From positions 1 to 37,674 of the forward strand of contig JAFXXU010000040.1 of NCBI GenBank assembly GCA_017542125.1: a stretch of 37,674 nucleotides of DNA. The letters run 5' to 3'. Both the position numbers and the translations under genes were made by a program. Shown one piece after another: positions 10,504 through 36,591 of the stretch (positions within the stretch are counted from its first letter, which is position 1; each line of letters opens with the position of its first letter). A model generated the notes under the pieces. That model was not told where the DNA came from. It saw nothing but the letters and a program-made list of their open reading frames with translations, and ran no database searches. The stretch is from Ruminococcus sp. Its GTDB lineage: Bacteria > Bacillota > Clostridia > Oscillospirales > Ruminococcaceae.

Positions 10504-11871
10504 TCAGAACTTGGGAAGCTTCGCAAGACTAGCTGCGATCTCTTCGTCAGAAGGAATGTAATCACTCATCTCGTGATCGTTGTACTTCTGATATGCTACC
10601 ATATCAAAGTATCCGGTTCCCGTCAGACCGAAGAGGATCGTCTTCTCTTCACCCGTCTCCTTGCACTTCAGAGCTTCGTCGATCGCTACTCTGATAGCGT
10701 GGCTGCTCTCGGGTGCAGGCAGGATGCCCTCTACTCTCGCAAACTTCTCAGCAGCCTCAAATACCGAGGTCTGCTCAACGCTTCTCGCGGTAATGAGACC
10801 GTCATCGTAAAGCTGCGATACAACAGAGCTCATACCGTGATATCTCAGACCGCCTGCGTGGTTGGCAGAAGGAATGAAGCCCGAACCCAGGGTGTACATC
10901 TTAGCCAGCGGGCAAACCATTCCCGTGTCGCAGAAGTCGTATGCGTACTTGCCCCTTGTAAGCGAAGGACAGGATGCAGGCTCTACTGCAATGAACTCGT
11001 AGTCAGCCTCGCCGCGGAGCTTTCTGCCCATAAACGGCGAGATGAGTCCGCCCAGATTGGAGCCGCCGCCGGCGCATCCGATGATGACATCGGGCTTGAT
11101 GTCGTACTTGTCGCAGGCTGCCATCGTCTCAAGACCGATAACGCTCTGATGCAGCAGTACCTGAGAAAGCACCGAGCCGAGAACGTATCTGTAACCCTCG
11201 GAGCTTACAGCCACCTCTACAGCCTCGGAGATAGCGCAGCCCAGAGAACCGGTGGTTCCGGGGAACTGCTCCAGGATCTTTCTGCCGATGTTGGTGGTGT
11301 TGGAGGGCGAGGGGGTAACGTCGGCACCGTAGGTGCGCATTACCTCGCGGCGGAAGGGCTTCTGCTCATAGCTTACCTTTACCATATATACCTTGCAGTC
11401 CAGGCCGAGATAAGCGCAGGCCATAGAGAGCGCAGTACCCCACTGGCCGGCACCGGTCTCGGTGGTAACGCCCTTGAGGCCCTGCTTCTTGGCATAGTAG
11501 GCCTGAGCGATAGCGGAGTTGAGCTTATGTGAGCCGGAGGTATTGTTGCCCTCGAACTTATAGTAGATCTTTGCGGGGGTACCCAGCGCCTTTTCGAGGC
11601 AGTAGGCTCTTACCAGAGGCGAGGGACGGTACATCTTGTAGAAATCGAGGATCTCCTGGGGGATATCGATATAGGGATCCTTGTCGTTGAGCTCCTGCTC
11701 AGCGAGCTCGCGGCAGAAAACGCCTGAGAGCTCTTCGACGGTCATAGGCTCGTGGGTGCCGGGGTTAAGGAGAGGAGCCGGCTTATTCTTCATATCAGCG
11801 CGGACATTATACCACTGCTTAGGCATCTCACTCTCTTCCAGATAGATCTTGTAAGGGATCTCTTTGCTCAT
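10504..11871 (-). CDS. trpB: TrpB2-type tryptophan synthase beta chain
   Basis: This PLP enzyme condenses indole with L-serine to give tryptophan. The 455-aa length and the N-terminal extension (IPYKIYLEESEMPKQWYNV) mark the long TrpB2 branch. The PLP lysine is Lys116 in SGSHKLNS. The phosphate-binding loop is CAGGGSNLGG, and TETGAGQWGTA is the substrate loop. TrpB2 proteins often act without TrpA, and no trpA or other trp gene is nearby, so indole salvage is likely. The start at 11871 is chosen because AAAGGAAG lies just upstream and because the longer reading frame runs back into the T-box leader. The Trp T-box upstream gives strong independent support that the product serves tryptophan supply. 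Confidence 0.95.
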   Translation of the reverse strand: MSKEIPYKIYLEESEMPKQWYNVRADMKNKPAPLLNPGTHEPMTVEELSGVFCRELAEQELNDKDPYIDIPQEILDFYKMYRPSPLVRAYCLEKALGTPAKIYYKFEGNNTSGSHKLNSAIAQAYYAKKQGLKGVTTETGAGQWGTALSMACAYLGLDCKVYMVKVSYEQKPFRREVMRTYGADVTPSPSNTTNIGRKILEQFPGTTGSLGCAISEAVEVAVSSEGYRYVLGSVLSQVLLHQSVIGLETMAACDKYDIKPDVIIGCAGGGSNLGGLISPFMGRKLRGEADYEFIAVEPASCPSLTRGKYAYDFCDTGMVCPLAKMYTLGSGFIPSANHAGGLRYHGMSSVVSQLYDDGLITARSVEQTSVFEAAEKFARVEGILPAPESSHAIRVAIDEALKCKETGEEKTILFGLTGTGYFDMVAYQKYNDHEMSDYIPSDEEIAASLAKLPKF

Positions 11872-11899
11872 AATACATCTTCCTTTCGTAAAAATAGAA

Positions 11900-12178
11900 A
11901 TAAAAAACCCGTCCCGACGAAACTTCGGGACAGGTAAATTCCTGCGGTGCCACCCAAATTGATGCTTACGCATCCTCTCGGTGCTCATACTGACATACGA
12001 GCCTGCGTTGGTAACGGGGGCAGAACACCCGTTGACTGCTACTGACCGCTGCAGCGGCTTTCGGTCACCCTCAGAAGTCCATTCATCCACGTTTTGACTG
12101 CTGCCTTTCAGCGCACGGCAGCTCTCTGGGAGCCAAAGCTCGCGGACTACTTACTCTTCTTCAACGGTTTAACATATT
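11900..12178 (-). promoter_or_regulatory. T-box leader, tryptophan-specific
   Basis: The leader has all the main T-box marks on the minus strand: the stem I element AGAGAGCTGCCG (12127-12116), a specifier loop with TGG (12081-12079) in the context GAATGGAC, the T-box sequence GGGTGGCACCGCAGG (from 11955), and the attenuator. TGG is the Trp codon. The four bases TGGC (11952-11949) would pair with a tRNA ending GCCA, matching the G discriminator usual for bacterial tRNA-Trp. It therefore should let transcription of trpB continue when tRNA-Trp is uncharged. Confidence 0.95.
11902..11934 (-). terminator. Attenuator terminator of the T-box
   Basis: On the minus strand CCTGTCCCGA (11934-11925) pairs with TCGGGACGGG (11917-11908), allowing one mismatch. 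A run of T follows (11907-11902). This is the Rho-independent terminator that uncharged tRNA prevents from forming. Confidence 0.92.
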
Positions 12179-12299: not shown

Positions 12300-13331
12300 T
12301 TACTCCCCCTCGTCAAGCACGAACTCCCCGTTTTCATCTGCGAAGAAAGCCGTCCCTACCGGCGAGTGCAGCAGCGGTATTATGCCGGGGACCCTGTCCG
12401 CCAGGCCGTGGGTGCTGTAAAGCACAAAATTTTCCGGATCATCCCAATAAGCATTGTCTTCATCAAACCCGTAGAATATCCACCCGTTGTAGCTTTCCTC
12501 GTTCGCGGTCTCGTAGCGGCACATATATGCGATCTTGCCGCCCTCGTTTATATGCTTGGTGACGATGCAGGGCTCCACACCGTCCCAGATCTCCAGATAC
12601 TTAAGGTTCTGCTCCTCCATATCCGCGGGATCTATCAGCGGGACTGCCAGCTCGCAGAGCTCACCCTCGCTGTCATAGCCCCAGAAGGCCTGATACAGCC
12701 CGTCGCCGAAGCCGGAGGCGTTCATTACTATCCTTCCGCCCTCCCCGGGTACAGTCCACTCGATGAAGTCGCCGCCTTCTCTTTGATATGCGGGCAGGCG
12801 CTCACAGCTCTCGGCGAACAGCGCCGCAAAATAGTCATCGTAGTGGTTGCCCTCGGGGTTCTCGCTGTGCCACTTCCTGCACCAGCTGATATAGCTCTCC
12901 ACCGTCCTCCGGTCGGCAAAGGCCATCATTCCCGCATCAACGGGGAAAGCTGCAAAGCAGCCGTCCGAGGACTTGAAGGCTGCGGTCTCCGGGTCAGCCA
13001 TAGCCAGCTCATAGCGCACCGCGGGCTTGTCCGAGAGCTTCACCCGTGAGGTGCAGATCCTCACCGAGTCAAAGGCCGTCCGCACAAAGGAAAGCTCCAC
13101 GGGATAGGAGCCGGGCTCAACGGTCTTTTCCATAGCAGGTGAGGCTTCGCCCACGCACATATATGCAAGCGGGTCCCCCACACAGAGCTGCCCGCTGGGG
13201 AGATCCACCGTTCCGATGACCAGGTGATCTCTGGTCTCGCTGTTTACAAATTGCGCCGCAATTGCTGCGGCGTCAAGTGTGTCGGAGGAGATGTACTCCC
13301 TGTTCTTTTTCAAGAGCTCTTTCATATCCAC
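12300..13331 (-). CDS. DUF4241-DUF2185 fusion, immunity-like protein
   Basis: The 343-aa product has two parts. Residues about 30-215 resemble DUF4241 (VDLPSGQLCVGDPLAYM, PGSYPVELSFV, then FPVDAGMMAFAD). Residues about 250-340 resemble DUF2185 (GWIFYGFDEDNAYWDDPENF, then IIPLLHSPVGTAFF). Both families are often seen as immunity or accessory proteins around polymorphic toxins, but no toxin is recognised here. There is no signal peptide or membrane segment. The GTG start at 13331 has GGAGG eight bases upstream. ATG at 13325 is the alternative. It is the last gene of a three-gene unit whose promoter is at 14530-14558. The domain calls are from memory of the families, and the function is unknown. 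Confidence 0.75.
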   Translation of the reverse strand: MDMKELLKKNREYISSDTLDAAAIAAQFVNSETRDHLVIGTVDLPSGQLCVGDPLAYMCVGEASPAMEKTVEPGSYPVELSFVRTAFDSVRICTSRVKLSDKPAVRYELAMADPETAAFKSSDGCFAAFPVDAGMMAFADRRTVESYISWCRKWHSENPEGNHYDDYFAALFAESCERLPAYQREGGDFIEWTVPGEGGRIVMNASGFGDGLYQAFWGYDSEGELCELAVPLIDPADMEEQNLKYLEIWDGVEPCIVTKHINEGGKIAYMCRYETANEESYNGWIFYGFDEDNAYWDDPENFVLYSTHGLADRVPGIIPLLHSPVGTAFFADENGEFVLDEGE

Positions 13332-22820: not shown

Positions 22821-23510
22821 TTATAACTGATCCGGGATCTCTGCTTTCTTTGCGCAGGTGATCTCCAGATTGCCGTTGCGGCAGCGGAGCTCGTCGATCA
22901 TTTTCTTTTCGTCGTTTACGTCCTTGAGCTTGATGTCGTAGCTCAGCTTGTAGAGGCTGCCCATTCCGGTGGTCTTGGTGGAGATGAGCTCGGAGTGGGT
23001 GGTGTACTTCTCGAAGATGTCGTCAAAGACCTCGCTGTAATCCAGGCTCTCGGGGATGGTGATGTGCAGCTCCTTCATAGCTGCTGCGGTGCCGCCTATG
23101 GGAACTACGGTAAATATCAGCGTTATCGCGCAGACTATGGCAGTTACCACGCAGGCCAGAACTATCTGCTCGCTGCCCGTTGCAAGACCGACAGCCATAG
23201 CCAGGAATATCCCGCAGATATCCTTGGCGTTGCCGGGCACGGAACGGAACCTTACCAGGCTGAATGCGCCCATTACCGCAACACCCGTTCCGATGTTGCC
23301 GTTAACCATCATAATGACTACCTGAACTATCAGGGGGAGTATGGTGAGGGCGAGGATGAAGCCCTTTGTCCTCTTCTGCTTAAAGCTGAAAGTAAAGCCT
23401 ATCACGGCTCCCAGCAGCACCGATACCGCGCTGCTTACGGCGAAGGATTCATTGGTCACGGTAAGTGACGAGGACGTTGTTTCAATGGTAGTTATTAAAT
23501 TTTCAAGCAC
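22821..23510 (-). CDS. DUF4956 membrane protein
   Basis: The 229-aa product has four membrane segments (about 26-45, 50-70, 72-95 and 112-138), then a cytoplasmic domain of about 85 residues. The motif NIGTGVAVMGAFSLVRFRSV followed by PGNAKDICGIFLAMAVGLATG is the hallmark of DUF4956, a family regularly found beside VTC-domain genes in bacteria. The GTG start at 23510 is preceded by AAGGTGATC and overlaps the VTC gene by eight bases, so the two are translationally coupled. A plausible reading is that this protein anchors the cytoplasmic VTC polymerase or forms a channel for its product. That is inference. A hairpin directly follows the stop. Confidence 0.92.
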   Translation of the reverse strand: MLENLITTIETTSSSLTVTNESFAVSSAVSVLLGAVIGFTFSFKQKRTKGFILALTILPLIVQVVIMMVNGNIGTGVAVMGAFSLVRFRSVPGNAKDICGIFLAMAVGLATGSEQIVLACVVTAIVCAITLIFTVVPIGGTAAAMKELHITIPESLDYSEVFDDIFEKYTTHSELISTKTTGMGSLYKLSYDIKLKDVNDEKKMIDELRCRNGNLEITCAKKAEIPDQL

Positions 23511-24261
23511 AGCTGATCACCTTTTCCTTATTCTTTACTTCTGTTGTCTCCGGCTTCTCTGCGGCGATCCTTTCCTTTGTGACTATGGTGTAGGCAGAGC
23601 CGTATTTCGAGAGGGATGCGGGGTATATCTTAAGCTCGTCAAGCATATGGGCGAGCCAGAGGGGCATGGCGTTGGTTATCTTGATCTCCATTACCCTTAC
23701 GCCGTCGGGCAGGATCGTTCTTCCGTAGGAGCCGCTCTCCAGGAGCAGATCGTTCTCACGGAAGGTTATGTTGCGGTCAAAGGTCACACGCAGCTCGGGA
23801 TCCTCGTTGCCGAACATGGCGATCCGGTCGTAGCTCAGATACATTGCGGGGCCTATGCCCTTATAGAATTTCATAAAGTATATGAGCTCGTTTTCGATCT
23901 GGGTATCCTTGCAGCCTACGGATCTGCCGCTGATGAGCTCTGCTACCTGATCCAGCTTGACCGAGATCCTCCGCTTGTAGACGATGCCCTTGAATTTCTT
24001 CTTCACCTCTACGAACACGCTCTCGCCCGGCTTCGGTACTCCGTAGCTGCGTACCCTGAGCTTTTCCTTGTAGATAGGCTTCTCTAAGGAGCGCCGCACC
24101 AGAAGATGCTCGGGGGTGTCGTAGTAGATGTTGCAGATCTTGGTCTCGCCGTACTTGTCAACGGTCATATAACCTTCGAGGCGCTTCCGGAGCTCGGTGT
24201 ACTGCTGCTCATCGAGGATGTATTTCCTCTCGACCCGCTTGAACACAGCCTGGAAAGCCAT
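23503..24261 (-). CDS. VTC-domain protein, polyphosphate-polymerase type
   Basis: The 252-aa product is a stand-alone VTC domain. In yeast Vtc4 this fold makes polyphosphate from ATP inside a basic tunnel. The charged strands expected for the tunnel are all present: FKRVERKYIL (about 7-16), YYDTPEHLLVRRSLEKPIYK, KLRVRSYG, VFVEVKKKFKGIVYKRRISV, VMEIKITNAMPLW, and the C-terminal LSKYGSAY. No membrane segment, signal peptide or SPX domain is seen, so the protein should be cytoplasmic and depend on the DUF4956 partner for the membrane. Its promoter carries the same 11-bp repeat operator as the response regulator gene. Family members without proven activity exist, so polyphosphate synthesis is a prediction. 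Confidence 0.9.
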   Translation of the reverse strand: MAFQAVFKRVERKYILDEQQYTELRKRLEGYMTVDKYGETKICNIYYDTPEHLLVRRSLEKPIYKEKLRVRSYGVPKPGESVFVEVKKKFKGIVYKRRISVKLDQVAELISGRSVGCKDTQIENELIYFMKFYKGIGPAMYLSYDRIAMFGNEDPELRVTFDRNITFRENDLLLESGSYGRTILPDGVRVMEIKITNAMPLWLAHMLDELKIYPASLSKYGSAYTIVTKERIAAEKPETTEVKNKEKVISCA

Positions 24262-24335: not shown

Positions 24336-24367
24336 ATTATAGCCCCTCACCTTTAATTTGACTTTAA
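24336..24367 (-). promoter_or_regulatory. VTC-DUF4956 promoter with tandem regulator hexamers
   Basis: On the minus strand TTAAAG (24367-24362), five bases, TTAAAG (24356-24351), nine bases, TATAAT (24341-24336). The 11-bp repeat period is typical for OmpR/PhoB-family regulators, and the inner hexamer falls where a -35 would be. No good -35 is present, so activation is likely. The arrangement is repeated at 26432-26463. Confidence 0.72.
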
Positions 24368-24390
24368 CCGAAGGTGAAAGTTTTGTGATA

Positions 24391-25686
24391 TCAGCCCTTG
24401 AATGTTATTGAGAAGGTTATCCTGCCCTCGGAAGCGGAGCAGGAGATCTTTGCCTTGTGAGCGTCGGCGGTGGCCTTTGCTATGGAGAGACCGATGCCGT
24501 AGCCGCCGCTGCCCTTGCGCTGCCTTGCCTCGTCGGCGCGGTAGAAGCGGTCAAAGAGCCGGGAGAGATCCCCCTTCGGGGGCTCCTTGCAGTCGTTTGA
24601 GACCGAGAGCTTCACGCCCTTATGGGTGTGCTTGAGGCTCACGGTGATGTTTCCGCCCTCGTCGCAGTATTTGACGGCGTTATCGCAGAAGATGCCCACC
24701 GTCTGGGCTATGGAGGCGCTGTCGCCCACTATGAGGATGTCCTCATCTATATCCAGCTTGAAGCTCTCGCCGTGAGTTCTTGCGGGGGCTTCAAACTCCG
24801 CGGCGGTTTTCATTACCACCTCCGAGAGATCAAAGCTTATAAACTCCTTCTTCTCCTGAGCCTCGTCCATTTTCGAGAGGCGCATAAGATCTTTTACCAG
24901 CCCGTCGAGGCGCTTGATCTGGTTCTTGGTGCTTTCCGTCCACTCGCTGGGCTCTGAGGTCATCTCGAGGACCTCGGTGTTGGCGGAGATTATGGCGAGG
25001 GGCGTTTTGATCTCGTGGCTGGCGTCGGTGATGAACTGCTTCTGCTTTTCGTGGGCTGCTATAAAGGGCTTGACCGCTCTGCGGGAGAGCAGGACTATCA
25101 GCCCCAGCACGAACACGAAGCTGGCTGCGGATATGCCTATGGAGATCAGCAGGAACCTCTGCTTGGTCTCCATATTCTGTCTGCGGTCGAGGAAGATGAT
25201 GAAATCGCTTGTCCCCCCGTCGCAGATCTGGTAGCGGTAATTGCCGATGGTGCCGGTCTCCTCGCCGGAGGCTTTTGCCTCCTGTGCCAGCTCCTCGGCC
25301 TTTTCGCTGTCAACGGCGGCAATATGGGTCATATCCTTATTGGCGATCTCCCCCGCCTCGTTGTAGTAGACTACGAAATAACGGGTCTGGTAGCGGGTCT
25401 CCTCATTTATTGATTTGCGGTCGCGGAAGTCGAACTTCGGCATCGACCCCATTTTCTGATCGTTATTCTTCTGGTCGTTGTTTTTCATATCGGGAGGATT
25501 GCCGTCCCGGCCGAAGAAGTCGGGGAAGCTGCCGCCTCCGCCGCTTATCATAGCGATGAGCTCATCCTCGTTTTCTCTGAGCTGATAGCTGTTTATGATA
25601 TTTATAGCCGCGACGACCGCCGTCAGCACGGAAAACAGCGAGACGGCAGTAATGAGTATAAATTTTCTCCGGAGCTTTTTTATCAT
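24391..25686 (-). CDS. Sensor histidine kinase
   Basis: This 431-aa membrane kinase has TM1 at about 10-30, an outer region of about 140 residues with a low-complexity Asp/Asn/Lys/Met tract (repeats of KNNDQK), TM2 (about 175-198), the dimerisation helix with His224 in FITDASHEIKTPLA, and an ATPase domain with DNAVKYCDEGG and GSGGYGIGLSIA. No HAMP domain is clear. The ATG at 25686 is preferred because GAGGTG lies six bases upstream. A GTG at 25695 is part of that ribosome site. The gene follows the response regulator by 27 bases and precedes the VTC gene on the same strand. Its signal is unknown. Envelope or phosphate conditions are guesses from the neighbours. Confidence 0.94.
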   Translation of the reverse strand: MIKKLRRKFILITAVSLFSVLTAVVAAINIINSYQLRENEDELIAMISGGGGSFPDFFGRDGNPPDMKNNDQKNNDQKMGSMPKFDFRDRKSINEETRYQTRYFVVYYNEAGEIANKDMTHIAAVDSEKAEELAQEAKASGEETGTIGNYRYQICDGGTSDFIIFLDRRQNMETKQRFLLISIGISAASFVFVLGLIVLLSRRAVKPFIAAHEKQKQFITDASHEIKTPLAIISANTEVLEMTSEPSEWTESTKNQIKRLDGLVKDLMRLSKMDEAQEKKEFISFDLSEVVMKTAAEFEAPARTHGESFKLDIDEDILIVGDSASIAQTVGIFCDNAVKYCDEGGNITVSLKHTHKGVKLSVSNDCKEPPKGDLSRLFDRFYRADEARQRKGSGGYGIGLSIAKATADAHKAKISCSASEGRITFSITFKG

Positions 25687-25713
25687 ATCCGTCACCTCAG
25701 AGCGGGCGGGGCA

Positions 25714-26388
25714 TCATTTCTTCTCTTCAAGAGAATATCCCACGCCTCGGGTAGCTTTTATCTCGATATCAGCGCCTATCTGCTGGAGCTTTTTGCGGAG
25801 GTAGGAGATGTAGACCCACACCACATTGATCTCTGCGTCGGAGTCATAGCCCCAGATCTTCTCCATAAAGCGCTCGGTGGAGATAAGGCGGTTCTTGTTC
25901 ATCATCATCATTTCCAGCAGCTGGAACTCCTTAGAGCTCAGTTTCTGGGAGCCGTTGGGCCCCGTGAGGTCGAAGGACTCGCGGCTGAGGGTAGTGTTGC
26001 CCATTTTAAGGTCATTGGGGGCGAACTCTGTTTTTCTGCGGGTCATAGCTCTGATCCTTGCCAGGAGCTCCCCCATTGAAAACGGCTTGGTGAGGTAGTC
26101 ATCAGCTCCGGCATCGAGGCCGGTGATCTTATCGTCGGTCTCCGACTTAGCGGTAAGGATGAGCACGGGGGAATCCACGCCCTCGGCTCTGAGCTTTTTG
26201 AGCACCTCGATACCGTTCATTTTAGGCATCATAACGTCCAGGACGATACCGTCGTAATCGCCTGTTCTGCCGTAGGCATAGGCATCTGCGCCGTCGTAGA
26301 CGGCATCGACGGAATAATTATTATGTTTAAGGATCGCGCACAGTGCATTTGAGAGCTCACGCTCATCTTCTGCGAGAAGTAGTCTCAT
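25714..26388 (-). CDS. OmpR-family response regulator
   Basis: The 224-aa product has an N-terminal receiver with Asp51 in VLDVMMPKMNG, the acidic pair AEDE (about 7-10), Thr in LTAKSE and Lys in YLTKPF. A winged-helix DNA-binding domain follows from about 125 (LSSKEFQLLEMMMMNKNRLI to WVYISYLRKKL). It is intact and of standard length. The start at 26388 is set by GGGAGG eight bases upstream. ATG 26394 would be too close. It is the first gene of the RR-HK unit. Regulators of this family bind direct repeats with an 11-bp period. Such repeats lie in its own promoter and in the VTC promoter, so autoregulation and control of VTC-DUF4956 are predicted. Confidence 0.95.
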   Translation of the reverse strand: MRLLLAEDERELSNALCAILKHNNYSVDAVYDGADAYAYGRTGDYDGIVLDVMMPKMNGIEVLKKLRAEGVDSPVLILTAKSETDDKITGLDAGADDYLTKPFSMGELLARIRAMTRRKTEFAPNDLKMGNTTLSRESFDLTGPNGSQKLSSKEFQLLEMMMMNKNRLISTERFMEKIWGYDSDAEINVVWVYISYLRKKLQQIGADIEIKATRGVGYSLEEKK

Positions 26389-26431
26389 ACTCATTACCTC
26401 CCAGGTTGAGGGTCATTTATCTTCGTATTCC

Positions 26432-26463
26432 ATTATATATGACGGACTTTAATTATACTTAAA
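26432..26463 (-). promoter_or_regulatory. Response regulator promoter with tandem hexamers
   Basis: On the minus strand TTTAAG (26463-26458), five bases, TTAAAG (26452-26447), nine bases, TATAAT (26437-26432). Spacing is identical to that of the VTC promoter, with one mismatch in the outer hexamer. It predicts that the regulator controls its own operon. Confidence 0.7.
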
Positions 26464-30539: not shown

Positions 30540-30681
30540 GATAAGGCGGGTGCTTTTTGTGCCTGCTTTTCCTGCGCGTTTGAGATAGTGCGCGCGATGT
30601 GCGGAGGGTGCCTCACCGCAAGACGGGGAGCGTCCGCCGCGAGCCATAGGTTTCTAATAAAATGAAAGGAATGATACTAAC
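30540..30681 (+). promoter_or_regulatory. Structured 5' leader of nifJ
   Basis: The leader of about 140 bases contains a hairpin with GCGG/CCGC and AGG/CCT stems (30601-30619) and directly after it GACG/CGTC (30622-30634). Then comes a loose stretch with the ribosome site AAAGGA. No known riboswitch consensus fits well. It may regulate or stabilise a highly expressed message. Confidence 0.45.
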
Positions 30682-33600
30682 ATGGCAAGAAAAATGAAAA
30701 CCATGGATGGTAACAACGCTGCTGCATGGGCATCCTACCCCTTTACAGAAGTCGCTGCTATCTATCCGATCACCCCTTCCTCTGTCATGGCAGAGCACAC
30801 CGATGAGTGGTCCGCCAAGGGGCAGAAGAACATCTTCGGTACTCCCGTAAAGGTTACCGAGATGCAGTCTGAGGCAGGTGCCGCAGGTGCCGTTCACGGC
30901 TCCCTTTCCGCCGGCGCTCTGACCACCACCTACACGGCTTCTCAGGGCCTGCTCCTGATGATCCCGAATATGTATAAGATCGCAGGCGAGCTGCTTCCCT
31001 GCGTTATCCACGTTTCCGCAAGATGCGTAGCTTCCCACGCTCTCAACATCTTCGGCGACCATTCCGATATCTATGCCTGCCGTCAGACAGGTTTCGCTAT
31101 GCTCTGCTCCTCCAACGTTCAGGAGGTAATGGATCTGGGTACTGTTGCTCACCTCTCCACCATCAAGGGCAGAGTTCCTTTCCTCCATTTCTTCGACGGC
31201 TTCCGTACCTCTCACGAGATCCAGAAGATCGAGGTATGGGATCAGAAGGACGTTGCTGAGATGCTGGATATGGATGCTGTTGAGGCTTTCAGAAAGAGAG
31301 CTATCAACCCCGAGCATCCCGTGCTCCGCGGTACCGCTCAGAACGGCGATATCTTCTTCCAGGCTCGTGAGGCCTGCAACGCTTACTATGACGCTATCCC
31401 CGGCATCGTAGAGGATTATATGGCTAAGGTAAATGCCAAGATCGGCACCAACTATCAGCTGTTCAACTACTACGGCGCTCCCGATGCTACCCATGTTATC
31501 GTAGCTATGGGTTCGGTTTGCGACACCATCGAGGAGACCATTGACTACCTCAACCAGAACGAGGGCACCAAGCTGGGTCTCGTTAAGGTACGTCTCTACA
31601 GACCTTTCTGCGCTGAGAAGCTCATCGCTGCTATCCCCGAGACCTGCGAGCAGATCTCCGTTCTCGACAGAACGAAGGAGCCCGGTTCTCTCGGCGAGCC
31701 CCTCTACCTCGACGTAGTTGCAGCTCTCAAGGATTCCAGATTCCACGACATCCCCGTTGCTACCGGCAGATACGGCCTGGGCTCCAAGGATACCACTCCC
31801 GCTCAGATCAAGGCTGTATTCTGGAACGCAAGCTGGAAGGATACCTTCAAGCCCCGCTTCACCATCGGTATCGAGGACGATGTTACCAACCTCTCGCTGC
31901 CTATCGAGGGCAAGCTCGACTCCGCTCCTGCCGGCACCACCGCCTGCAAGTTCTGGGGCCTCGGCGCTGACGGTACCGTCGGTGCAAACAAGAACTCCAT
32001 CAAGATCATCGGCGACCATACCGATCTCTTCGCTCAGGCATACTTTGCTTATGACTCCAAGAAGTCGGGCGGCGTTACCGTTTCTCACCTGAGATTCGGC
32101 AAGACTCCCATCAAGTCCACCTACCTGATCAACCAGGCTGACTTCGTTGCCTGCCATAACGAGAGCTATATCAGCAAGTACGATATGGTTTCCGACATCA
32201 AGCCCGGCGGAACCTTCCTGCTCAACTGCCAGTGGGATGAGAAGGAACTGGATAAGCACCTTCCCGGCCAGGTAAAGAGATATATCGCTCAGAACGGCAT
32301 CAAGTTCTACACCATCAACGGCGTTAAGATCGGTAAAGAGGTAGGCCTCGGCACCAGGATCAATACCGTTCTCCAGTCCGCATTCTTCAAGCTCTCCGGC
32401 ATCCTGCCCATCGAGGACGCTGTTAAGTATATGAAGGACGCTGCCACCGCTTCCTACTCCAGAAAGGGCGATGCCATCGTTAAGATGAACCACGACGCTA
32501 TCGACGCCGGCTATCAGCAGGTAGTTGAGGTCAAGGTACCCGCTTCCTGGAAGAAGGCGAAGGATACCCAGATGGGTATGGCTAAGGTAAAGTGCGCTAA
32601 CAAGGATCTTGAGAAGTTCGTTAACGAGATCCAGATCCCCTGCAACGCTCAGAAGGGCGACACCCTCCCCGTTTCCACCTTCACCTATATGGCTGACGGT
32701 ACCTTCCCCCAGGGCGCTGCCGCATTCGAGAAGAGAGGCATCGCTGTTGACGTTCCCGCCTGGAACGGCGAGAACTGCATCCAGTGCAACTTCTGCTCTT
32801 ATGTATGTCCTCACGCTGTTATCCGTCCCGTTGTCATGACCGATGCCGAGCTGAAGAAGGCTCCCGAGCTTGCTAAGAAGAAGGCTATCCCCATGACCGG
32901 TATGCCCGGATACAACTTCGTAATGACCATGTCCGCCCTCGACTGCACCGGCTGCGGCTCCTGCGTGAACGTATGCCCCGGCAAGAAGGGCAACAAGGCT
33001 CTGAATATGATGCCTCTGGAGAGCCAGCTTGCTGAGCAGGAGGTATTCAACTACGGTCTTACTCTGGCTGAAAAGCCCGAGATCCTTGAGAAGTTCAAGG
33101 AGACCACCGTTAAGGGCTCGCAGTTCAAGCAGCCCCTGCTCGAGTTCTCCGGCGCCTGCGCAGGCTGCGGCGAGACTCCTTACGCTAAGCTCGTAACACA
33201 GCTCTTCGGCGACAGAATGTATATCGCAAACGCTACCGGCTGCTCGTCCATCTGGGGCGGTTCGGCTCCCTCGACTCCTTACACCACCAACAAGGCAGGC
33301 AAGGGTCCCGCTTGGGCTAACTCGCTGTTTGAGGATAACGCTGAGTACGGCTACGGTATGTTCCTCGCTCAGAACACCATCCGTCAGAGGACCATCGGCA
33401 AGGTACTTGAGCTGGAGAAGAACACCAAGAAGGCTGACCTCAAGAAGGCTATCGAGGGTTATCTCTCCACCGTTGACGACGGCGCTGCAAATACTCCCGC
33501 TACCGAGGCTCTGATCGCTGCCCTCAAGAAGGACAAGACCAAGGCTTCCACCGAGATCCTTAAGGATGCCGATTACCTCCGCAAGAAGTCCATCTGGATC

Positions 33601-34251
33601 TTCGGCGGCGACGGCTGGGCTTACGATATCGGCTTCTCCGGCCTTGACCACGTTATCGCTTCCGGCGAGGATGTAAACATCTTCGTATTCGATACCGAGG
33701 TTTACTCCAACACCGGCGGACAGTCCTCCAAGTCCACTCCTACCGGCGCTATCGCTCAGTTCGCAGCAGCAGGTAAGGAAGTTAAGAAGAAGGATCTGGC
33801 AGGCATCGCAATGAGCTACGGCTACGTTTATGTTGCACACATCTCCATGGGTGCCGATATGAACCAGTGCATCAAGGCTATCAGCGAGGCTGAGGCTTAC
33901 AAGGGTCCTTCCCTCATCATCGCTTATGCTCCGTGTATCAACCACGGTATCAAGGGCGGTATGTCCATCTCCCAGACCGAGGAGAAGAAGGCTGTTGAGT
34001 GCGGCTACTGGCATCTGTACAGATACAATCCTCAGCTGAAGCTGGAGGGCAAGAACCCCTTCACCCTGGACAGCAAGGCTCCTTCCAAGGACTATAAGGA
34101 CTTCCTTATGGGTGAGGTCCGTTACAACTCGCTCGTTAAGCAGAACCCCGAGAGAGCAGAGAAGCTCTTCAACAAGGCTATCAAGAACGCTGCTGACAGA
34201 TATGATTACCTGCTCAGATTTGCAAAGCTCTACAACGACGAGACCAAGTGA
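30682..34251 (+). CDS. nifJ: Pyruvate:ferredoxin (flavodoxin) oxidoreductase
   Basis: This single-chain PFOR turns pyruvate and CoA into acetyl-CoA, CO2 and reduced ferredoxin, central to fermentative energy metabolism. The 1189-aa length is full. The N-terminal domain has YPITPSSVMAEH. Two 4Fe-4S clusters are marked by CIQCNFCSYVCPH (about 699) and CTGCGSCVNVCPG (about 757). The third-cluster and TPP region has SGACAGCGETPYAKL, GDGWAYDIGF and TEVYSNTGGQSSKSTPTG. Codon use is much more biased than in neighbours (heavy use of aag, gag, ctc/ctg, gct), the mark of a highly expressed gene. It is a single gene between its own promoter and a strong terminator. AAAGGA precedes the ATG. Confidence 0.98.
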   Translation: MARKMKTMDGNNAAAWASYPFTEVAAIYPITPSSVMAEHTDEWSAKGQKNIFGTPVKVTEMQSEAGAAGAVHGSLSAGALTTTYTASQGLLLMIPNMYKIAGELLPCVIHVSARCVASHALNIFGDHSDIYACRQTGFAMLCSSNVQEVMDLGTVAHLSTIKGRVPFLHFFDGFRTSHEIQKIEVWDQKDVAEMLDMDAVEAFRKRAINPEHPVLRGTAQNGDIFFQAREACNAYYDAIPGIVEDYMAKVNAKIGTNYQLFNYYGAPDATHVIVAMGSVCDTIEETIDYLNQNEGTKLGLVKVRLYRPFCAEKLIAAIPETCEQISVLDRTKEPGSLGEPLYLDVVAALKDSRFHDIPVATGRYGLGSKDTTPAQIKAVFWNASWKDTFKPRFTIGIEDDVTNLSLPIEGKLDSAPAGTTACKFWGLGADGTVGANKNSIKIIGDHTDLFAQAYFAYDSKKSGGVTVSHLRFGKTPIKSTYLINQADFVACHNESYISKYDMVSDIKPGGTFLLNCQWDEKELDKHLPGQVKRYIAQNGIKFYTINGVKIGKEVGLGTRINTVLQSAFFKLSGILPIEDAVKYMKDAATASYSRKGDAIVKMNHDAIDAGYQQVVEVKVPASWKKAKDTQMGMAKVKCANKDLEKFVNEIQIPCNAQKGDTLPVSTFTYMADGTFPQGAAAFEKRGIAVDVPAWNGENCIQCNFCSYVCPHAVIRPVVMTDAELKKAPELAKKKAIPMTGMPGYNFVMTMSALDCTGCGSCVNVCPGKKGNKALNMMPLESQLAEQEVFNYGLTLAEKPEILEKFKETTVKGSQFKQPLLEFSGACAGCGETPYAKLVTQLFGDRMYIANATGCSSIWGGSAPSTPYTTNKAGKGPAWANSLFEDNAEYGYGMFLAQNTIRQRTIGKVLELEKNTKKADLKKAIEGYLSTVDDGAANTPATEALIAALKKDKTKASTEILKDADYLRKKSIWIFGGDGWAYDIGFSGLDHVIASGEDVNIFVFDTEVYSNTGGQSSKSTPTGAIAQFAAAGKEVKKKDLAGIAMSYGYVYVAHISMGADMNQCIKAISEAEAYKGPSLIIAYAPCINHGIKGGMSISQTEEKKAVECGYWHLYRYNPQLKLEGKNPFTLDSKAPSKDYKDFLMGEVRYNSLVKQNPERAEKLFNKAIKNAADRYDYLLRFAKLYNDETK

Positions 34252-34266
34252 TCCCCAATAACAAGA

Positions 34267-34293
34267 CCCCCGTGCTGAGCACGGGGGTTTTTT
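34267..34293 (+). terminator. nifJ terminator
   Basis: CCCCCGTGC (34267-34275) pairs perfectly with GCACGGGGG (34279-34287) around TGA, followed by six T. It lies 15 bases after the nifJ stop and may also serve the convergent lipoprotein gene. Confidence 0.96.
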
Positions 34294-34304
34294 GTGTCTG
34301 TATA

Positions 34305-34985
34305 TCAGGTGAGGTCGAAACGCTCGTAGATCTCCCTGCATAGGTTTTCGTCGAAGCGGATGTCCTCCTCGTAGCGCCCGTTCACAAAGCCGAGAGCATC
34401 GGGCTTGCCGAGCTGTTCGGGGAGGGGGTATCGTCCGTTTGCATCACTTGTCGTCCACCAGGAGCCATCCTCGGAGCGGGTGAGAAAGATTATCCATTTT
34501 TCACCGATGTTCATAGGCGCAAGCTCGGTGAACAGGATAAGCTTTCTGCCGTCGGGGCGGTCATCCTGAAAGCAGTAGTTCTCACAGAGAACGATGCTTT
34601 CCTCATCAAGAGTGCCTGCCAGCACCTTCTCGATCTTTAAGCCTGCTTTGGTCACTGCTCCGAACAGCTCTTTCTTCTGCTCGGGATACTGATAGAAATA
34701 CTCTGTGCCTTCATCGGATGTGAACTCCCCTATCACAACAGCGTCGGAGTGAGAGATGAGATCGTCAAGGTTTGTCCAGATCCCGCTCCGTTCGACCAGA
34801 ACGGAGATCGTTTCAAAAGAATCGTCAGGCGAGCTATCAGCTTCGGAGGCTGTGGTAACGGCCTCGGAGACCGGGCTGCTATCGGGGATATCAGCCGCAG
34901 CGTCAGAGCCCGATTCGCCGCAGGAGGACATACTGCCCAATATCAAAACGGATGACAGTAAAGAAATAATAGTGTCCTTTTTCAT
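34305..34985 (-). CDS. Secreted lipoprotein of unknown function
   Basis: The 226-aa product has a lipoprotein signal: MKKDTIISLLSSVLILGSMSSC with Cys22 as the lipid-attachment site. The box reads MSSC, a slightly loose fit. Residues 23-60 form a Ser/Asp/Ala/Glu-rich linker that would hold the domain away from the membrane. The remaining domain of about 165 residues (LDDLISHSDAVVIGEFTSDE, LKIEKVLAGTLDEESIVL, LILFTELAPMNIGEKWIIFL) looks beta-rich and recalls small extracellular domains of Firmicutes lipoproteins with the pattern 'SDAVVIGEV... V..VLKG'. No function is known for those. GGGGGA precedes the ATG. It is monocistronic with its own promoter. Confidence 0.83.
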   Translation of the reverse strand: MKKDTIISLLSSVLILGSMSSCGESGSDAAADIPDSSPVSEAVTTASEADSSPDDSFETISVLVERSGIWTNLDDLISHSDAVVIGEFTSDEGTEYFYQYPEQKKELFGAVTKAGLKIEKVLAGTLDEESIVLCENYCFQDDRPDGRKLILFTELAPMNIGEKWIIFLTRSEDGSWWTTSDANGRYPLPEQLGKPDALGFVNGRYEEDIRFDENLCREIYERFDLT

Positions 34986-35169: not shown

Positions 35170-36591
35170 TTAGAAGGGGAACTGGTTGAAGAACTCTCTG
35201 TACTGACGGTACAGCTCTTCTTCACTGGTAGTCCTCTGGTCATCGGTGGACTCTTCCTTCTGCGAGAGCTCGTCAAGGACTACATCAAAGTCTATGATCT
35301 CGCCGTTTCTGTAAACAGAGATCTTGATGGTGTCGCCTGCCTTGTAGTTCTTAACGACGTTGTTGAATTCCGAAAGGGACTCTATCAGCTTGCCCTCAAC
35401 ACCGATGATGATGTCGTTGACCTGAATGCCCGCAGCCTTGGCTCCGCTGCCTTCCTTGATGCTCCTTACAAAGAAGCCCTTGGGGATGTTGTAATACTGC
35501 GAATATACGTTGGATACAGTCTCACCCGTGATGCCCGTGGTGGGTCTGCCCGTTACATAGCCGTTGGCAATGAGCTCCTTGACTATGGGGATAGCCTCAT
35601 CTATCGGGATCGCAAAACCGAGGCCCTCACCGTAGGTGTTGGTCACCTTCGCAGAGGTGATGCCCACTACCTGTCCGTAGGAGTTGATCAGCGGGCCGCC
35701 GGAGTTTCCGTTGTTGATGGATGCATCCGTCTGGATGGTGTTCATCGTTCTGTCGTCAACGGTGATAGTTCTGTCAAGGGCCGAGATGATGCCGGCAGTT
35801 ACGGAATTGGCAAGCTCAAAGCCCAGAGGGTTGCCTATTACGATAGCAGCCTCGCCTACCTGAAGATCCGAGGACTTTCCGAACTCGGCCTTGGTAAGAC
35901 CGGTCTTGTCTACCTTGAGGACTGCGATATCGGTCTGGGTGTCCTTGCCCACCAGAGTAGCTGCGATGGTCAGATTGCTGTTATCGGAATCGCTCTCGTC
36001 AGCGTAGGAGTTGGGGAGCAGTACCGAGATGGACTGTGCGCCGTCAACAACGTGAGCGTTGGTGATGATGTAGCCGTCCTCGGTCATTATGATGCCTGTG
36101 CCCTTTGCAACGCCCTGCCTGGTAACGGTGCTGATGCCGACTACCGAGGGGGATACCTTCTTGACGATATCGGTGATCTTCATCGCATCGTCAGGTGAGG
36201 AGAGCTGCATAATGGTGGGAACCTCGCGGGTCACGGTCTCCTCTTTTTCGGCCTGCTTGTTCTGGGTGGTGGCAACATCCTTGGAAGCTGCTGCCGACTT
36301 GGCGGAGGACTCGGAGCTGTCGTCGCTGCCGACGAGCTTTCCGCCGGTCACGAGGTTGTAGCCCACGATAGAGGTGGTGCCTATGGCAGCCACAGCCAGA
36401 ACTCCGACGATACCGGCGAGGATCTTTTTGCCCTTGCCCTTTTTCTTCTTCTCGGGCTTGTAGACTACCTCGTTGGTCTCGGTGCCGTAGCCCTGCTGAT
36501 AGCCGTAGCTGTAATAATTCTGAGCATTGTAGCTGTTCTGCTGCTCGCTGTCGTAATTGTTGTAGCCGTTGTTATTATTGAACTCATTCAT
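35170..36591 (-). CDS. htrA: HtrA/DegP-type membrane-anchored serine protease
   Basis: This surface protease degrades or refolds damaged exported proteins. The 473-aa product has a cytoplasmic N terminus rich in Asn, Tyr and Gln (1-50), a Lys-rich stop and one membrane segment (ILAGIVGVLAVAAIGTTSIV, about 57-76). A Ser/Ala/Glu-rich linker leads to the trypsin-like domain, with the triad His180 (TNAHVV), Asp221 (TDIAVLKV) and Ser297 (GNSGGPL). One PDZ domain covers about 360-450 (GFFVRSIKEGSGAKAAGIQV). All catalytic residues are present. GGAGG lies ten bases before the ATG. It is a single gene; a CssRS- or sigma-type stress operator was not recognised. Confidence 0.96.
   Translation of the reverse strand: MNEFNNNNGYNNYDSEQQNSYNAQNYYSYGYQQGYGTETNEVVYKPEKKKKGKGKKILAGIVGVLAVAAIGTTSIVGYNLVTGGKLVGSDDSSESSAKSAAASKDVATTQNKQAEKEETVTREVPTIMQLSSPDDAMKITDIVKKVSPSVVGISTVTRQGVAKGTGIIMTEDGYIITNAHVVDGAQSISVLLPNSYADESDSDNSNLTIAATLVGKDTQTDIAVLKVDKTGLTKAEFGKSSDLQVGEAAIVIGNPLGFELANSVTAGIISALDRTITVDDRTMNTIQTDASINNGNSGGPLINSYGQVVGITSAKVTNTYGEGLGFAIPIDEAIPIVKELIANGYVTGRPTTGITGETVSNVYSQYYNIPKGFFVRSIKEGSGAKAAGIQVNDIIIGVEGKLIESLSEFNNVVKNYKAGDTIKISVYRNGEIIDFDVVLDELSQKEESTDDQRTTSEEELYRQYREFFNQFPF

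Follow-up and report, generated by a model that had tools for sequence, protein, structure and literature searches.

PhoB recognizes the pho box, whose direct repeats take the place of a −35 about 10 bp ahead of the −10; its half-site sequence and its targets differ from those of the box described below. The CiaR box also stands at CiaR's own promoter. In streptococci this box is described as NTTAAG-N5-WTTAAG, with the −10 at N10, and the CiaR recognition helix, VVEVYVSKVRKKL, is nearly invariant (PMC3091779). CiaR-type sites occur outside the streptococci in the BAS0540-BAS0541 system of the Bacillus cereus group, where binding was demonstrated and one site lies upstream of the BAS0540 gene itself; the main text of that paper does not mention VTC (PMC4938410). 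In Listeria, the two-component system LisRK drives the LhrC small RNAs, whose CU-rich motifs bind Shine-Dalgarno sequences, but LisR differs in that its responsive residues lie at −55 to −75, and its binding consensus was not known at the date of the paper (PMC4132741). Here we describe a box resembling that of CiaR in a 37,674-nucleotide stretch of DNA from Ruminococcus sp. (contig JAFXXU010000040.1, positions 1 to 37,674; the window), which carries an OmpR-family two-component system and a VTC-DUF4956 gene pair. A CiaR-like two-component regulon is, in our view, the likely explanation of the box and of the regulator and VTC promoters. The genes and promoters are as follows.

22821..23510, minus strand: DUF4956 protein, 229 aa (Pfam DUF4956, 53.3 bits).
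23503..24261, minus strand: protein of 252 aa with a VTC domain, the predicted core of a polyphosphate polymerase (Pfam VTC, 144.3 bits).
24336..24367, minus strand: VTC promoter in the N9 frame, with TTAAAG (24362-24367), N5 TCAAA, TTAAAG (24351-24356), N9 GTGAGGGGC and TATAAT (24336-24341).
24391..25695, minus strand: sensor histidine kinase, 434 aa (Pfam HisKA and HATPase_c).
25714..26394, minus strand: OmpR-family response regulator, 226 aa (Pfam Response_reg, 102.8 bits; Trans_reg_C, 77.5 bits).
26432..26463, minus strand: regulator promoter, with TTTAAG (26458-26463), N5 TATAA, TTAAAG (26447-26452), N9 TCCGTCATA and TATAAT (26432-26437).

The VTC and DUF4956 genes overlap by 8 bp, and the regulator has the receiver domain and the winged-helix C-terminal domain (Pfam) of the OmpR/PhoB type. 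As the original prediction held, the two promoters share one layout, TTWAAG-N5-TTWAAG-N9-TATAAT, and neither has a clear −35: the best match at 16-18 bp spacing is 3/6 at VTC and 2/6 at the regulator gene. Its placement of the inner hexamer at the −35 position was wrong, as this hexamer lies 9 bp from the −10 and not about 17. Counted back from the −10 hexamer, the inner hexamer starts at 15 bp and the outer one at 26 bp, and a hypothetical −35 at 17-bp spacing would start at 23 bp, so that the outer hexamer overlaps the −35 slot. This layout suits activation without a −35, which is the direction of regulation that we infer. When sites are aligned on the −10, the hexamers and the −10 carry 1.6-1.9 bits per position and the flanks and spacers 0.5-1.0, a contrast inflated by the use of promoters (11 VTC and 9 regulator) selected for having a site.

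The box is rare in the genome to which the window belongs (G000; 2,907,601 bases, about 90% complete; G, C and L numbers are our labels for genomes, contigs and stretches). The strict pattern TTAAAG-N5-TTAAAG-N9-TATAAT, proposed for a genome scan, has the VTC promoter as its sole match, and the regulator promoter is recovered only with TTWAAG. In the TTWAAG form, exactly two zero-mismatch matches occur in the 2.9-Mb assembly, namely these two promoters, and the next match has 1 mismatch. With up to 1 mismatch there are 3 matches, against 0 for the reversed pattern, while with up to 3 there is no enrichment (19 matches versus 16 in the control). Genome-wide, therefore, strong matches alone are meaningful, and weaker sites were scored before chosen genes and with controls. 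Within the window no further site with up to 3 mismatches exists on either strand in N9 or N10 form, in line with the earlier claim of no other copy. Across 61 genomes, 16 of them from the genus, the N9 pattern with up to 1 mismatch gives 46 matches (one G013 stretch, on contigs C36 and C68, is included twice) versus 7 for the reversed control; the genus genomes contribute 36, versus 3. The N10 form gives 25 matches versus 1, and a perfect TTTAAG-N5-TTTAAG-N9/10-TATAAT is found in 7/61 genomes, including G000 (contig C10).

Comparison across genomes supports a putative shared operator of the OmpR-family system and the VTC-DUF4956 pair. The box stands at the regulator promoter in 11/13 genus genomes having a close regulator (219 bits or more) and at the VTC promoter in 14/14 having VTC; at the regulator it is missing in G011 and in G014, where the contig ends 116 bp upstream. 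The genus members G004 and G012 have no box match in N9 or N10 form, no VTC, no PF14262 and only distant regulators (best E 9.1e-35 and 2.5e-32). Out of 562 confirmed VTC places with names, the best 80 make up our named loci; here a site with up to 3 mismatches precedes VTC in 52/80 (0.8 in shuffles) and the regulator gene in 18/33 (0.6 in shuffles). Two culturable relatives, Mobilisporobacter senegalensis DSM 26537 (L141) and Ruminococcus albus KH2T6 (L152), have the box as well as the gene cluster. The best named VTC-family matches include several Ruminococcus metagenome-assembled genomes, some from rumen samples, and a regulator above 230 bits lies within 3.5 kb of VTC in 32/80 loci (22 on the same strand, 10 on the opposite one). 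Of the outcomes named beforehand as evidence against the prediction, those that concern the sequence mostly did not occur. The hexamers are kept in relatives, and they are rare at unrelated promoters: other open reading frames (ORFs) of at least 200 aa in the named loci have a site in 6/488 cases, a control that is approximate because some mechanically called ORFs are surely not genes. It is true that the intergenic DNA is AT-rich and that G000 shows no enrichment at 3 mismatches, two points that would fit chance matching in AT-rich DNA, or nothing more than a strong core promoter. We find this hardly credible in view of the conservation and of the reversed-pattern, shuffle and other-ORF counts; on the shuffle and other-ORF controls we reject a chance match.

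VTC matches are present in 41/61 genomes, of which the best 30 had their VTC promoters scored. A close regulator is found in 15/18 genomes with a VTC box versus 3/12 without one (Fisher p 0.002, relatedness ignored). In seven of the 30 it is unlinked to VTC, on another contig or far away; the box is then at both promoters in G003, G009 and G034, at VTC alone in G011 (3 mismatches) and G020, and at the regulator alone in G025 and G055.

Several observations weigh against the proposed regulon. No site with up to 3 mismatches is found at 28/80 named VTC promoters and 15/33 regulator promoters (one of these 15 upstream regions, L137, is truncated by its contig end). A VTC box is present and no close regulator was found in G008 (85% complete), G033 and G049, and G025, G051 and G055 have a close regulator and a VTC promoter without a box, so another regulator may serve some sites. 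The species are related, and the counts are therefore not independent. On the minus strand, no terminator-like site was found between the kinase and VTC genes, so VTC may also be transcribed from the regulator promoter. Finally, the window sites fit the N9 frame, and their half-sites in the N10 frame end in A where CiaR has an invariant G (PMC3091779).

Some of these points would also fit a box that is real but bound mainly by another OmpR-family regulator, the neighbouring one being merely another target. G000 has 22 matches to the regulator, three genomes have a VTC box without a close regulator found, and where regulators have an NNVEAYISF-type helix, their own promoters, too, bear TTTAAG or TTTCAG boxes. 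This explanation appears improbable to us, since the box stands at this regulator's own promoter in 11/13 genus genomes that have a close one, the close regulator tracks the VTC box, and helix and box covary in three regulators. In these three (G039, G045 and G051), RKK is preceded by T or A, and TTCAA(G/T) is the box sequence; with n=3, a joint change of helix and box is suggestive only. Separately, the regulators of L163, L182 and L203 have another helix, NNVEAYISFLRKK, and TTTCAG-N5-TTTCAG at their own promoters, hinting at a co-change of operator and helix there.

The preferred reading, regulation by the neighbouring system, gains detail from the VTC promoter, which is more elaborate than the regulator promoter. 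The whole window promoter reads TATCAC-N5-TTTCAC-N5-GTTAAA-N5-ATTAAA-N10-TATAAT. With promoters aligned on the −10, its half-sites in the N10 (CiaR) frame, all on the minus strand, are the following.

24385..24390, minus strand: half-site 1, TATCAC, upstream pair, immediately 3' of the kinase stop codon.
24374..24379, minus strand: half-site 2, TTTCAC, upstream pair, in 11-bp phase.
24363..24368, minus strand: half-site 3, GTTAAA.
24352..24357, minus strand: half-site 4, ATTAAA.

TTTCAC-like half-sites (up to 1 mismatch) fall exactly at −38 and −49 and so continue the 11-bp period of the proximal half-sites, which lie at −27 and −16. In a set of 43 target promoters (VTC 18, PF14262 10, small RNA 8, lipoprotein and GT2 7), 21 and 24 have one at −38 and −49, respectively, while other offsets average 0.7%; the C10 site of G000 was left out of this set and also has the upstream pair. 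At each upstream offset, 10/18 VTC promoters but 0/18 regulator promoters match. Outside the genus, a second pair lies 22 or 23 bp upstream in 9/49 VTC promoters, some of these pairs consisting of TTTAAG-like sites; a distance of 24 bp is counted 3 times, and 17, 30 and 44 once each; among 17 regulator promoters none has one at 22-24 bp and one has it at 39. The stretches L137-L139, apparently from species already among the genus genomes, were excluded from these upstream-pair counts and kept in the 80 named loci, and L144, probably G015, was kept in both.

These positions are most simply read as a tandem of two dimers at VTC and a single dimer at the regulator gene, and we regard the four-half-site arrangement as a variant of a CiaR-like operator. 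It is conceivable, though we doubt it, that the proximal and the TTTCAC pairs serve two different regulators, the VTC promoter integrating two signals. The upstream pair does differ in sequence and is missing from all 18 regulator promoters; on the other hand, it keeps an exact 11-bp phase with the proximal pair, and in other lineages it is TTTAAG-like (L141, L143, L149, L151, L156 and L184).

The original prediction named two promoters; the proposed regulon is wider, as further genes carry the box. Beyond the regulator and VTC sites, G000 has six that depart from the N9 pattern by 1 or 2 mismatches.

C58: upstream of a GT2-GtrA gene accompanied by a phosphodiester-glycosidase gene.
C77: upstream of a PF14262 lipoprotein gene.
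C44:62174: upstream of a gene for a lipoprotein whose beta-helix match stays below threshold.
C52: 183 nt ahead of an ABC-FtsX gene.
C10: no mismatch in the N10 form; the contig ends without a clear gene.
C44:36708: within a reading frame, probably chance.

The pair of GT2-GtrA and phosphodiester-glycosidase genes recurs at G007 C37 (Pfam) and G014 C173 (by eye). In 49/80 named loci VTC has a same-strand PF14262 gene close by. Forty PF14262 genes were chosen by eye as non-adjacent to VTC, four of them known through their box; of the 36 not picked in this way, 13 have a site with up to 3 mismatches, with shuffles as the control (the PF14262-region stretches L240, L254 and L255 are outside this scoring). 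No such site was found in a lower-scoring PF14262 group of ten genes, one per genome, grouped by eye (0/10). A distant VTC-DUF4956-CotH operon in L309 (G026 C58:3000-6200) is preceded by a CiaR-type box with 1 mismatch.

In several genus members the box precedes what appears to be a small RNA. In G010 and G002 no ORF comes after it; instead there are about 120 nt that contain a pyrimidine-rich stretch and end-of-transcript features in the form of a strong terminator-like hairpin, and blastn with the G010 transcript alone added loci in G007 and G008. An RNA model built from these four loci without the box and run on the 16 genus genomes found two more strong matches, in G013 (E 7e-5) and G006 (E 0.0015), whose boxes (3 and 2 mismatches) are separated from the start of the RNA by 0 and 2 nt. 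None of 18 other model matches has a site better than 6 mismatches (two opposite-strand matches of seed loci are outside the 18). The core TCCTTN(0-1)CTTAAAT occurs at 20 places: the six candidate RNAs have a box with up to 3 mismatches 44-56 nt upstream, and at the remaining 14 places no site has fewer than 6. The sequences thus point to a conserved csRNA-like candidate behind the box in 6/16 genus genomes, at these loci.

L303:2388-2506, minus strand.
L307:2754-2877, minus strand.
L324:1470-1589, minus strand.
L322:1469-1578, minus strand.
L366:1501-1607, plus strand.
L367:1501-1620, plus strand.

The core is CUUCCUUC(C)UUAAAU, or UCUCCUUCC in G002. The terminal stems differ in sequence and retain their folding. 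Five of the twelve consensus pairs have changed on both sides and others are broken in one or two sequences; with a covariation term of +0.5 and these broken pairs, covariation is weak support for the RNA. G010 and G013 have a good U tract, G007 and G008 a poor one. Folding predicts a 5' hairpin for G002, G007 and G008, which the best folds of G010, G013 and G006 lack, and the core is fully single-stranded in G002 and G008 only. At the gathering threshold Rfam has no family for the four seed loci. Two unrelated csRNA-like candidates, both box-preceded and C-rich with a terminator-like hairpin, lie at G034 L098:3961-4050 and G020 L316:2749-2840, both on the minus strand.

For the window's own genome the small RNA searches were negative. 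Model matches are no better than E 0.02, all without a box, the core pattern has no match, and the RNA is absent ahead of the orthologous acylphosphatase gene (in a comparison without G001). Since 150 of 609 candidates were scored and the genome is about 90% complete, these results do not prove absence. A blastn match at G000:C38 was rejected because it shares 17 bases with the query and lacks the rest of the RNA.

Eleven residues (R69, R71, E85, K87, K96, R98, R146, R158, E192, K194 and K219) are invariant in 20 VTC sequences; we take these basic and acidic residues to line the tunnel. The VTC family profile matches yeast Vtc4 chains (PDB 3g3q, E 1.3e-8; 5iiq, E 5.2e-8). These features support, without proving, polyphosphate synthesis or another tunnel-enzyme activity. 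In the 252-aa protein Pfam finds the VTC domain only, and neither the SPX nor the Vtc1-like membrane domain of the yeast-type complex. The DUF4956 gene follows VTC in 76/80 named loci; by sequence comparison, its profile matches no VTC chain in PDB, including Vtc1, at E up to 5.

What the DNA itself shows is where the sites lie, how they are phased and conserved, and which genes they precede; on this we build the following proposal. The phosphorylated regulator most likely binds direct half-sites at 11-bp spacing and would activate promoters in which a −10 is present and a usable −35 is lacking, its dimer sitting over the −35 region like PhoB at the pho box. One dimer site would drive the regulator-kinase operon itself, and two tandem dimer sites, or four half-sites, would drive VTC-DUF4956. 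The genus regulon would add PF14262 (Cthe_2159-type) lipoproteins, other secreted lipoproteins and the operon of GT2-GtrA and phosphodiester-glycosidase genes, and in some members it may include the csRNA-like RNA. VTC may make polyphosphate, with DUF4956 helping to move or anchor the product.

With less confidence, but still on balance, we favor a CiaR-type regulon that is wide in Clostridia, in which one regulator family would control VTC, DUF4956 and PF14262 genes through one or two tandem dimer sites, together with csRNA-like RNAs in several lineages. If this is true, two-component-driven small RNAs of the csRNA kind would be older than Streptococcus or more mobile than it, and the VTC of bacteria would belong to an envelope-response programme. 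The VTC-DUF4956 pair was encountered in many Clostridia in this analysis. The regulator, the operator and the putatively co-regulated genes offer a handle on when VTC-DUF4956 is used and point to the cell surface, and the candidate small RNAs behind the same box make csRNA-type control outside streptococci testable.

Three other features of the window were recorded. A T-box leader (Rfam RF00230, 105.9 bits) at 11923-12173, minus strand, overlaps the start called for the ORF of a pyridoxal-phosphate enzyme (10504-12090); the real start of this ORF is probably further downstream. The interval 12300-13331, minus strand, encodes a protein with DUF4241 and Imm33 immunity-type domains. Two long ORFs oppose each other at 30613-34341 (minus, 1242 aa) and 30682-34251 (plus, pyruvate:ferredoxin oxidoreductase); as only the plus-strand ORF has a Pfam match, the other is probably spurious.

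How close is this system to those already described? Its half-site sequence, 5-bp gap and −10 distance are like those of streptococcal CiaRH (PMC3091779), and the candidate RNAs of relatives resemble the CiaRH csRNAs in standing behind the box and in having pyrimidine-rich stretches and a terminator-like hairpin (PMC3091779, PMC8186281). The box also stands at the regulator's own promoter here. Unlike in CiaRH, the targets are VTC-DUF4956 and PF14262 genes, and four half-sites occur with a TTTCAC pair. The recognition helix, VVWVYISYLRKKL, is identical to the CiaR helix at 9/13 positions and is not the CiaR helix itself. Among the NCBIfam matches listed for the regulator (25 of 96), no cut-off is reached, the top one being RppA with 224 of 250 bits, and no CiaR model appears. 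The htrA gene, a target in the CiaR regulon, has no counterpart under the box in the window: an HtrA-type serine protease with a PDZ domain lies at 35170-36591, minus strand, and has no CiaR-type box, its best upstream site having 6 mismatches. Given the results for helix and htrA, we call the system CiaR-like rather than CiaR.

Gram-positive Pel clusters include CotH, poly-phosphate polymerase and DUF4956 accessory genes, the latter two as here, but there these genes adjoin pel genes, and the part of the paper that describes them mentions no operator (PMC7112168). In open-licence PMC, mostly by title and start of abstract, we found among the matches listed no paper connecting VTC or DUF4956 with a CiaR-type site, and none dealing with csRNAs in Clostridia, and we found none assigning the VTC-DUF4956 pair a role. 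With no published link found, we regard the target set as new, while the operator layout is the one already known from CiaR.

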